A stretch of 21,449 nucleotides of DNA, taken from the IMG/VR virus record IMGVR_UViG_3300025289_000138, positions 1 to 21,449 of that record; one strand, 5' to 3'. The position numbers and the translations under genes were made by a program. The stretch is from a virus. The notes below the pieces were generated by a model. It was not told the DNA's origin. It worked only from the letters and a program-made list of their open reading frames with translations, and did no database searches. Shown here in pieces: positions 8,656 through 18,009 of the stretch (the stretch's first letter is position 1; every line of letters begins with the position of its first letter).

Positions 8656-8883
8656 CTATGCCTCATCGATGACAGGCTTCAACCCTGCGCGTTTCCACCA
8701 CGCGGCGAGACGCTGGCGCCAGCCTTCCATGTTCCATTTGCCGGGTCGGTCGCGGTAACCAGGCATGGTCGGAACACCTTGCATCCGTACCATGACCGGC
8801 TGTCCCGCAAAGAAACCGTGATCGACCTGTCCCATTGGCCCGAAGGCCTGACCCATCGATCCAATCGTTCGTCCGCGCGCCAT
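8656..8883 (-). CDS. 75-residue protein sharing a motif with the surface protein at 10233-10952
   Basis: It starts with a TAATG overlap on the repeat-protein gene. The N-terminal half is Gly/Met-rich (MARGRTIGSMGQAFGPMGQV). Residues 35-51 read QGVPTMPGYRDRPGKWN, nearly the same as the C-terminus of the 239-residue protein two genes upstream in transcription. A helix rich in Trp and Arg follows (MEGWRQRLAAWWKRAG). I do not recognise a family. The shared motif suggests both proteins dock on a common partner, possibly as short surface tags. Confidence 0.6.
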   Translation of the reverse strand: MARGRTIGSMGQAFGPMGQVDHGFFAGQPVMVRMQGVPTMPGYRDRPGKWNMEGWRQRLAAWWKRAGLKPVIDEA

Positions 8884-9797
8884 TACACACCCGCCGTCAG
8901 TTCATCGATGGGCTGATTCGCGGCGTCCGTGGTGACTGTCTGACTCATGTGGAGCGTCACGCCATCGGTACGGTAGGTTTCCAGCGTGCCCGCATTGTCA
9001 CGGATACGACTCACGGCTTTGAGGATTGCCGTCGCCAGTGAATGCAATGCTGCTGTGGCTTCGACCTGATCGATGTCCCGCTTCAGGAGCGCGTCGGCGA
9101 TCTCTAGCGCGGCGTCCGCGGCCAGCGCCGCCGCATCGATCGCGTTCGCCGCGAAGGTCGCTGCGTCGATCGCACCATTCGCAATGGCTGCTGCGTCGAT
9201 TGCCCCCGCCGCAAACGTTGCGGCGTCGATGGCTCCGTTGGCGATCGCGGCTGCATCGATGGCTCCGGCGGCGAAGGTTGCCGCGTCGATGGCGGCATTT
9301 GCAATAGCCGCCGCATCGATCGCACCTGCCGCGAACGTGGCTGCATCGATCGCGCCATTCGCAATAGCGGCAGCATCGATAGCACTGGCTGCAAACGCGG
9401 CAGCCGTGATCGCGCCCGCCTGGAATGAGCCAGTCTCGGCGCCTCCAGATGCATCGATGTCCATTCCACGCCCGCTGATATTCGGGAATGCCAGATCGAC
9501 CAACTGTCGGGTTGCGGTATACATCACGTTCACCGCTGTTTTCGCGCCAGCCGTGCCGGTCTTCGTGATCACCGCCACGATGTCCGCATTCATCTCGGTG
9601 GCAGTGAGCGACAGTGTATACATTCCCGATGAAGTCGCGAGTTCACCTGCCTCATTGGTGCAGTCGGTGAATGTCCCGCCGTCCTTGCTCACCTCACTGT
9701 CGAGCGTCGCGGCGGCAGTCACCAGATCGCCATCCGCATCGTAGATCGGGAAGGTGACTATAAATGCAGCATTCTTCTTGGGTGGCCAGTCTGCCAT
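8883..9797 (-). CDS. Virion protein with ten 10-residue Ala-rich repeats
   Basis: A 304-residue protein starting at ATG 9797 with AGGAG eight bases upstream. Residues 1-100 form a beta domain (FIVTFPIYDADGDLVTAAA, LDSEVSKDGGTF, TSSGMYTLSLTATEMNAD) of a type I recall from phage structural proteins. Residues 129-228 are ten repeats of ten residues alternating AIDAAAIANG and AIDAATFAAG. Residues 229-304 are a helix (ALLKRDIDQVEATAALHSLA) and a small beta domain (RDNAGTLETYRTDGVTLHM). The repeats probably form a rod, either a coiled coil or a left-handed beta-type solenoid. A fibre or tail spike-like role is inferred. Confidence 0.75.
   Translation of the reverse strand: MADWPPKKNAAFIVTFPIYDADGDLVTAAATLDSEVSKDGGTFTDCTNEAGELATSSGMYTLSLTATEMNADIVAVITKTGTAGAKTAVNVMYTATRQLVDLAFPNISGRGMDIDASGGAETGSFQAGAITAAAFAASAIDAAAIANGAIDAATFAAGAIDAAAIANAAIDAATFAAGAIDAAAIANGAIDAATFAAGAIDAAAIANGAIDAATFAANAIDAAALAADAALEIADALLKRDIDQVEATAALHSLATAILKAVSRIRDNAGTLETYRTDGVTLHMSQTVTTDAANQPIDELTAGV
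9114..9413 (-). repeat. Ten 30-bp coding repeats
   Basis: Ten consecutive 30-bp units encode AIDAAAIANG or AIDAATFAAG variants (first unit AITAAAFAAS, last AIDAAALAAD). The even 60-bp alternation shows that the unit duplicated was probably two repeats long. Synonymous differences between copies show they are old and kept by selection at protein level. The array could expand or contract by slippage. Confidence 0.9.
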
Positions 9798-16533: not shown

Positions 16534-16764
16534 TTAGCCTCCATCACGTGTCCGCTGATACTCCTCACGTGTGATCCGCCGGTACGTGATCTCACCGATA
16601 GTCAGCGGCAAGCACGCCAAATGCTGCCGGAACTCGTCGAGCGTCAGCACCGTCGGATGCCGGTCGCGCTCGAACCGTTCGTCCGAGTGCGGCGTATGTG
16701 CATGATACATCGCCTCGGCGGTGCCGACAATTGTCTGCTGCGGCGAGACTGCCATGATCAGCAT
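16534..16764 (-). CDS. Unknown 76-residue protein
   Basis: It starts at ATG 16764 in a TAATG overlap with the previous gene, with AGGATA just upstream. The protein is polar and His-rich in the middle (MYHAHTPHSDERFERDRH), then HPTVLTLDEFRQHLACLPLT and a Thr/Arg-rich end. No membrane segment or recognised motif. Confidence 0.55.
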   Translation of the reverse strand: MLIMAVSPQQTIVGTAEAMYHAHTPHSDERFERDRHPTVLTLDEFRQHLACLPLTIGEITYRRITREEYQRTRDGG

Positions 16765-17075
16765 TATCCTATCCTTCGTGAACGGAAAGTCAGCTCGTAA
16801 TGCGATTTAAGAATCGGTGAATCGGCCTTGTCGATCAGCGTCCAGCCGCGCGAGGCAAACATCCGATACGTGCTCAACCAGTGCTCCTTCTCGACCTGCT
16901 CGATATGATATTCGGGAGTACCACTGTATGCAGGTGCATCCGGTGCGTACACCGGAACTCGATTGATCGTTGATCGCAGCAGGATGACTACGAGTGCAAA
17001 CGAGATCGTCATCAGGCTGCAACACATGAAGCCCACGAGTGCAAAACCGATGTTCACTGCGTCGATGGATACCAT
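16764..17075 (-). CDS. Unknown membrane-anchored 103-residue protein
   Basis: The N-terminus has a hydrophobic span (residues about 8-34, GFALVGFMCCSLMTISFALV and on) and then a soluble domain (TPEYHIEQVEKEHWLSTYRM, SRGWTLIDKADS) of mixed alpha/beta type. It starts at ATG 17075 just beyond the left GGCNN array. AGGA is only two or three bases before the start. Likely a single-pass inner-membrane protein; function unknown. Confidence 0.55.
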   Translation of the reverse strand: MVSIDAVNIGFALVGFMCCSLMTISFALVVILLRSTINRVPVYAPDAPAYSGTPEYHIEQVEKEHWLSTYRMFASRGWTLIDKADSPILKSHYELTFRSRRIG

Positions 17076-17084
17076 ATCCTAGCT

Positions 17085-17169
17085 TGCCTCACCGAACCGT
17101 GCCTCGCCACGCCTTGCCGCGCCTGGCCCTGCCTCGCCGCGCCGTGCCTCGCCCTGCCTAACCGCGCCT
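17085..17169 (-). repeat. Left pentanucleotide GGCNN array
   Basis: Seventeen successive 5-bp units, all of the form N-[GA]-C-C-N on the plus strand (NGGYN on the transcribed strand), run without a break in phase. The two central C bases are constant and outer bases vary, mostly T/C and A/G/T. It lies just after the end of the 177-residue gene. Reading frames through it (Arg/Gly/Ala-rich) are artefacts of the repeat. Confidence 0.85.
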
Positions 17170-17177
17170 TGACTATC

Positions 17178-17711
17178 TCATTTCCATTCTGTGACCATGA
17201 ACCGCCCGAACGGCCCTTTCTTCTCCGGCCGGAAATCGAGCAGGCCAACACGCGAACCGGCATCATTGACCACAGCACGCAGGTCAGCCTCGTTCAATAG
17301 CTCCGTGTCGTACTCGATGCCGAACGAACATGACCACTCGTCGAACCGTGGCCGATGACGAACAATGCGACCCTTCGTCGCGGCGATCACGACTGGGCGA
17401 GAATCCACCTTGTATTCCCTCACACCGAGCGAGCATCGTTCCGGTGTGACCGTGACACAGGCGGCCACTGGCTTCTGAAGCGATCCGCGTCCTTTGCCCT
17501 TCGAGTACACTGCCGCGCCGACAAGCGCACGCTGAATCGCCAACCCCGGAATATATAGCTCATTCGTATCGGAGTCGCGATATTCTGCGAATGCGGCCTG
17601 CTCCTCCGGCGATGACTTCTCCCATCCCTTCGGCGGCGCAACCATCGGATACGAGTGCATCAGCAACGCCGACGTACCTTTGATCACGACCTTCACACTC
17701 TTGATGGACAT
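17178..17711 (-). CDS. Conserved-looking phage protein, possible RAMP-like fold, flanked by GGCNN arrays
   Basis: A 177-residue protein starting at ATG 17711 with AAGGGGA seven bases upstream. N-terminus: VKVVIKGTSALLMHSYPMV, a strand followed by a short turn. Middle: DTNELYIPGLAIQRALVGAA and a Gly/Lys-rich YSKGKGRGS. Then a beta region (GRIVRHRPRFDEWSCSFGIE) and the C-terminal GLLDFRPEKKGPFGRFMV. The pattern 'strand - I-P-G-x-x-I-x-x-A-L - Gly loop ... G-x-x-x-F-R-P-x-x-x-G-x-F-G-R-F' recalls RAMP/Cas7-type RNA-binding folds, where a Gly-rich loop follows the last helix. This is a pattern-level suggestion. The gene is the only one between two pentanucleotide arrays and follows a VapE gene, so a DNA or RNA role is plausible. 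Confidence 0.6.
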   Translation of the reverse strand: MSIKSVKVVIKGTSALLMHSYPMVAPPKGWEKSSPEEQAAFAEYRDSDTNELYIPGLAIQRALVGAAVYSKGKGRGSLQKPVAACVTVTPERCSLGVREYKVDSRPVVIAATKGRIVRHRPRFDEWSCSFGIEYDTELLNEADLRAVVNDAGSRVGLLDFRPEKKGPFGRFMVTEWK

Positions 17712-17758
17712 CGATTCATCCCCTTTCGGAATGAGGCGAGAATCGCTCGCCGCGTGCT

Positions 17759-17843
17759 ACCCTTGCCCTGCCACACCTGACCAGACCAGACCATACCTCG
17801 CCACGCCGCGCCCAGCCTTGCCTTGCCCGGCCGCGCCTTGCCT
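17759..17843 (-). repeat. Right pentanucleotide GGCNN array
   Basis: Seventeen 5-bp units of the form N-[GAC]-C-C-N on the plus strand, same design as the array at 17085-17169. Units vary (GACCA three times in a row, TGCCT, CGCCG, CGCCT), so this is not a simple slippage tract of one unit. It lies about 50 bases upstream of the 177-residue gene's start. Confidence 0.85.
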
Positions 17844-17870
17844 TGTCATAACACTCACGCCAACTATCGA

Positions 17871-17997
17871 GTGCACCATGTGCACCATCAGTTTCCAGAC
17901 TTCTTATAACCCCAACCAACAACAACAAAGAAACCTAATATACCTGCATGGTGCAGAATTGTAAAAAGTCTCAAAAGTGATGGTGCACATGGTGCAC
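17871..17997. repeat. Long inverted repeat with TGGTGCA units; possible replication origin
   Basis: The arms 17871-17902 and 17966-17997 match at 29 of 32 positions when one is reverse complemented, the first 20 perfectly (GTGCACCATGTGCACCATCA). With seven more inner positions the match is 34 of 39. The spacer is AT-richer. TGGTGCA occurs six times in either orientation (17872, 17881, 17949, 17981, 17990, 18051). Iteron-like units with an AT-rich core next to a replication ATPase gene suggest an origin; an extended RNA hairpin is the alternative. Confidence 0.6.
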
Positions 17998-18009
17998 TTC
18001 CATCACAAG

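Follow-up and report, generated by a model that had tools for sequence, protein, structure and literature searches.

The window analysed here, an entire IMG/VR record of 21,449 bases, belongs to a virus that encodes terminase, portal and capsid. Adjoining its VapE-type helicase gene is a locus in which two tracts of pentanucleotide repeats lie on either side of a gene of 177 codons, all on the minus strand. The features of the locus are as follows, with names taken from the VIPR systems introduced below.

17870-17909 and 17959-17998, no strand assigned: 40-nt imperfect inverted repeat (88%) and GTGCACCAT iterons, which surround the promoter-like site
17937..17965, minus strand: promoter-like site TTTACA-17-TATATT upstream of tract 1, 10/12 consensus match
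17760..17844, minus strand: putative vrRNA repeat tract 1 (upstream), 16 NNGGY units and one NNGGG
17712..17759, minus strand: sequence 3' of tract 1 that may hold a vrRNA tail and the vipr leader
17178..17711, minus strand: vipr gene, 177 codons, product a 177-aa RAMP-like Vipr (profile, BLASTP, AlphaFold model and Foldseek)
17086..17170, minus strand: putative vrRNA repeat tract 2 (downstream), 17 NNGGY units
17060..17085, minus strand: sequence 3' of tract 2 that contains a small hairpin, GGATA-TGG-TATCC, of putative function

Each unit of the tracts has three constant bases, G, G and a pyrimidine (mostly C, some T), and two bases that vary freely. Tract 1 consists of 16 NNGGY units at 17844-17765 and a 17th unit, AAGGG, at 17764-17760; its variable dinucleotides are AA AA GC CG AA AA TG GC GT GA AT CT CT CA GT AG (AA). 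Those of tract 2 are AA GC TA AG GA AC GC GA AG CA GC AA GT GA AC TC GA. Tract 1 ends about 48-53 nt ahead of the vipr ATG (17711), and tract 2 begins 7 nt past the vipr stop codon (17178). A first-pass annotation made from the sequence alone had placed two arrays of the same orientation at 17085-17169 and 17759-17843, which is correct to within 1 nt. The 17 units that it gave to each are all NNGGY in tract 2, but only 16 of them are in tract 1. It had described the unit as GGCNN with two constant central bases; the alternation of constant and variable positions stands, but the functional unit is NNGGY on the minus strand and the third constant base is a pyrimidine. The arrays do bracket the gene, but with gaps of 7 nt and about 50 nt they frame it loosely, not exactly as the annotation had it.

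An 8-unit GGY/NN pattern had 19 overlapping matches in the window, all inside the two tracts, and none in 100 dinucleotide-preserving shuffles of the window, so a chance origin of the arrays is excluded. No other run of at least 5 units was found anywhere else in the 21 kb. The arrays are not an assembly accident of one contig, because two further contigs of the same virus contain them: a 32-kb contig (G001) that shares 18,722 bases with the window at 100% identity, and another (L232) that is 100% identical across its 6.5 kb compared.

The 177-aa protein was assigned to phrog_4652 and matched no known entry in Pfam, NCBIfam or PADLOC. When a profile of 19 relatives (A1) was searched against all PDB sequences, a single entry was matched, 36pp_D, 'SUSP1 Vipr protein' (E=1.1e-11), and the 36pp sequence is identical to SUSP1 ALH47069. 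BLASTP aligned the window protein with ALH47069 at 38% over 60 aa, including the region of the G-rich loop (GLLDFRPEKKGPFGRF, residues 156-171); overall identity is only about 27% and is low outside the C-terminal 60 residues. The AlphaFold (AF2) model of the protein had a pLDDT of 87. All 50 matches listed by Foldseek against the PDB were chains of CRISPR effector complexes (Csm, Cmr and type VII; best E=1.8e-6), mostly backbone subunits of the Csm3/Cas7 type. The TM-scores lay at about 0.5-0.6 and the rmsd values were large, in keeping with a remote relationship among RAMP proteins. Vipr has been described as a small (~20 kDa) RAMP homologue with an RRM core and a G-loop (PMC13142463). The window protein is a small RAMP homologue, carries the G-loop and is related to the SUSP1 protein; judged by its sequence and model, it is a Vipr with a predicted RAMP-like fold.

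In VIPR (Viral Interference Programmable Repeat) systems, Vipr, a RAMP protein encoded by the phage, acts together with vrRNAs that contain 9-16 YNNGG repeats (PMC13142463). The NN dinucleotides of the vrRNA pair with the DNA target, with one base skipped, usually at the codon wobble position, and the Vipr-vrRNA complex represses transcription in competing elements; this mechanism was published for the systems of SUSP1 and P. fulva (PMC13142463). Like the VIPR locus of Escherichia phage SUSP1 (PMC13142463; 36pp; ALH47069), the window has a phage-encoded, homologous Vipr with same-strand GGY/NN repeats on both sides, and our own reading of the SUSP1 genome agrees with the published map in placing GGY/NN arrays to either side of the gene. 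The window differs in having two vrRNA tracts where SUSP1 has four, 16-17 strict units where SUSP1 has about 11 or fewer by the same rule, and mostly GGC units where those of SUSP1 are mostly GGT; neither a vap1-like gene nor a recognisable SUSP1-type tail was detected in it. Pseudomonas phage LESphi2 (OQ594955) has at P21_9 a Vipr homologue, 32% identical over 97% to the window protein, and a GGY/NN array of 10 units precedes its gene by about 110 nt; a second gene then follows in the vap position, and no homologue of this second gene was found in the window virus. The Csm3/Cas7 RAMP subunits of class 1 CRISPR share with the window Vipr the predicted fold and the G-rich loop and, in the published model of Vipr, the role of a multimeric holder of guide RNA. 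In contrast to class 1 CRISPR, the window has no CRISPR array or cas genes, its guide would be non-contiguous (NN/GGY) and its protein has a single domain.

The linkage of arrays to Vipr was surveyed in two independent directions, by protein alone and by array alone. By protein alone, 20 of 22 Vipr relatives in IMG/VR (a set that includes near-duplicates and two members from the window's own virus) have same-strand arrays of at least 6 units within about 110 nt; one other has an array 1.0 kb off and one has no array. By array alone, at least 120 stretches of IMG/VR matched a pattern of ten GGY/NN units, most of them showing the constant and variable positions of the window. A Vipr homologue is encoded in 85 of the 120 matches listed, and in those 85 stretches all arrays (221/221) share the strand of Vipr, with a median gap of 184 nt. 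Vipr was encoded in 0 of 97 control stretches obtained for unrelated reasons. In GTDB, three of four Vipr relatives, from MAGs titled Chloroflexota, Anaerolineae or Longilinea, have 7-8 arrays downstream of the gene, and the fourth, from a Methanoregula MAG, has one array upstream. The window follows the same arrangement: each tract, with constant GGY and hypervariable NN, lies beside vipr on the same strand. Some of the 35 listed stretches without a detectable Vipr are explained by contig ends and simple-sequence matches; others (the 35 include L029, L036, L053, L055 and L086) could carry divergent Vipr types or orphan vrRNAs.

Two further features were seen in the arrays of relatives. The long arrays beside vipr in L236, L240, L246 and L248 contain in-phase units in which TGY or similar replaces GGY at intervals (for example GGCGA TGCCT GGCTT), and these might delimit staggered vrRNAs. 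In Chloroflexota prophage relatives (L258:3822-4501, L259:3823-4533 and L260:3810-4452), successive vrRNA-like arrays are separated by an element of ~60 nt, CACTCCCTGACGGAGAGTGCC...CAAAGGGCTTTCTGGTCAGGG, present in 17 copies in total, which forms a long hairpin interrupted by an internal loop (-27 to -36 kcal/mol). Hammerhead-interspersed arrays have been reported (PMC13142463); Rfam did not call the present element a hammerhead at E<=1, and its role may be processing of a different kind.

Two other explanations of the repeats were considered. The tandem pentanucleotide period would suit an ordinary microsatellite arising by slippage. Over 33 units, however, GGY is fixed while NN varies freely, 0/100 shuffles match, and strand and gene linkage are conserved; gene linkage and the constant and variable pattern refute slippage, to which we give practically no credence. 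Arrays in the same orientation on either side of one gene could also be recombination sites that move the 177-codon gene as a cassette. Against this, the two arrays have only the GGY scaffold in common and differ in NN content, four relatives (L234, L235, L242 and L245) have arrays on one side only and other relatives have many on one side, neither a recombinase nor an empty site was seen, both further contigs of the virus keep the identical arrangement, and either array by itself is intelligible as a guide RNA. We therefore consider movement as a cassette extremely improbable.

The first-pass annotation was partly supported by these results. It had judged the repeats unlike ordinary slippage, and the fixed GGY, free NN and strand and gene linkage bear this out. 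Its suggestion of phased protein binding or RNA structure appears right in outline, by homology to the SUSP1 VIPR and the linkage across the family, and its tentative mention of similar arrays in other phage genomes agrees with SUSP1, LESphi2 and the IMG/VR stretches. Its cassette proposal found no support, given the differing NN content, the one-sided arrays of relatives and the intelligibility of each array singly. It had further asked whether arrays occur at random places or always beside a homologue of the 177-residue protein: the arrays are tied to that family (85 of the 120 listed stretches, strand agreement throughout, no control with Vipr), but not always, since the other 35 show none.

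When read with the wobble base skipped, guide 1 gives AAN AAN GCN CGN AAN AAN TGN GCN GTN GAN ATN CTN CTN CAN GTN AGN and guide 2 gives AAN GCN TAN AGN GAN ACN GCN GAN AGN CAN GCN AAN GTN GAN ACN TCN GAN. An obligate stop is absent from both, and the predicted targets begin AANAANGCNCGN and AANGCNTANAGN, respectively. Among 287 guides, the entropy at core NN positions is close to its maximum (3.8-3.9 of 4 bits), and the correlation of NN usage with codon composition is strongest for positions 1-2 read in sense (r=0.64), not exceeding 0.51 in any other phase or orientation. The guide of one relative (L022) matches a coding sequence in a phage contig (L130, in the ORF with KDALAQGVDI) at 19 of 20 NN bases, in frame and with the wobble base skipped. 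None of 150 permutations of the unit order of this guide reached 19 NN bases, and with skips of 0, 2 or 3 bases no guide match of at least 0.95 was obtained. The match is supportive but not conclusive, because 301 guides were screened.

For the window guides, no natural target was found in IMG/VR with half-length or core seeds (six patterns, each specifying 16-18 bases with a 1-nt skip), in GTDB with the 22-base core of guide 2, or, at up to 3 mismatches, in 400 genomes from the phylum of L258. The best full-length candidates scored 24/34 for guide 1 and 25/34 for guide 2 and were not accepted, because the stretches had been selected for seed content. No site for self-targeting of the locus promoter was seen. 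Guide 1 also matches the virus's own tail-fibre-like gene (L262:11924-11974) at 23/34 NN bases, in frame, with 4 of 600 permutations equal; this is a weak lead, which may be chance or may hint at a target carried by some related phage.

The position of the tracts, with tract 1 in the probable vipr leader and tract 2 immediately ahead of the next ORF, would also fit a cis-acting leader RNA or DNA platform, with no guide role, on which Vipr or another TRAP-like oligomer regulates the translation or transcription of vipr and the next gene. TRAP is an RNA-binding protein that reads regularly spaced triplets, and the likeness lies in a protein oligomer that reads a triplet every 5 or so nt. To our knowledge TRAP is not homologous to Vipr, and its targets lack hypervariable guide positions. 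Pure cis-regulation leaves the near-maximal NN entropy and the codon-phase composition unexplained, and relatives have 3-10 arrays downstream of the gene. Moreover, the SUSP1 homologue has been demonstrated to use its arrays as guides (PMC13142463). We consider such a platform very improbable, and very probably the two arrays are programmable guide-RNA genes on either side of the gene for their partner protein, the locus being a compact VIPR system.

In type II (SUSP1-like) VIPR systems the repeats are followed by a conserved structured 3' tail, a pseudoknot in the SUSP1 clade (PMC13142463). Types I and III-VII are told apart by the phylogeny of Vipr and by their vap genes. The region 3' of tract 1 has predicted hairpins (GGCGAG/CTCGCC and CTCATTC.../...GGATGAA...) and a predicted ribosome site, AGGGGAT, and its folding together with tract 1 is weak (z=-1.66). 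The region 3' of tract 2, within which a downstream ORF of 103 aa starts (16764-17075), folds no better than shuffles (z=0.6-0.9). Across the clade, a purine-rich AAGG start is all that the arrays have in common in their 3' flanks. Because a conserved 3' tail was not detected, we assign the locus to VIPR but not to type II. Concerning the second gene, vap, no same-strand neighbour family within 2.5 kb is common to the clade, and SUSP1 vap1 had no detectable homologue in this virus. The missing vap is not decisive against VIPR, because VIPR loci are said only 'typically' to hold this gene (PMC13142463).

The inverted repeat and the promoter-like site sit between the helicase gene and tract 1. 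Promoter-like sites numbered 2 in the region against 1.2 expected, and the one listed plausibly drives vrRNA1-vipr-vrRNA2, a reading that is suggestive only. The inverted repeat with its GTGCACCAT iterons is a candidate operator or replication origin. Rfam gave no meaningful family in the window; the top match, MIR2599, is due to the 40-nt inverted repeat and was rejected. Elsewhere in the window, at 9133-9416, degenerate tandem repeats of 30/60 nt lie within a tail-fibre-like ORF (8883-9797, minus strand), consistent with a repetitive structural protein.

By analogy with SUSP1, both vrRNAs and the Vipr protein would be made from the minus strand, on a single transcript or on separate ones. 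The single-domain Vipr would line up on each vrRNA with one copy at every NNGGY unit, gripping the GGY triplets as scaffold and leaving the NN dinucleotides exposed as guide. The exposed dinucleotides would pair with one strand of double-stranded DNA, two bases being read and one skipped, so that a vrRNA of 16-17 units would specify 32-34 bases across about 50 bp. The genes addressed by such guides may belong to a competing phage, prophage or satellite, and with the skip on wobble positions synonymous changes would give the target no escape. As in the published SUSP1 work (PMC13142463), binding would block transcription of the target.

Systems of the VIPR kind are already known, having been described months ago (PMC13142463, bioRxiv 2026) as RNA-guided and DNA-recognising, with a code that is not contiguous, and as systems from which class 1 CRISPR possibly descends, and the present locus is a further example. 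It comes from an environmental phage distant from the enterobacterial and Pseudomonas clades studied so far, and it was recognised from sequence alone. The GGY/NN pattern by itself suffices to find VIPR loci easily, as the IMG/VR stretches indicate, and the survey puts numbers on the linkage between arrays and Vipr. Tentatively, and with some doubt, this virus and its close relatives might represent a minimal VIPR variant, with a lone Vipr, two (or few) vrRNAs, no vap and no structured tail, in which the repeat tract would be the entire guide RNA. Such a clade, in which neither an accessory gene nor a tail was detected, would help to define the minimal VIPR system.
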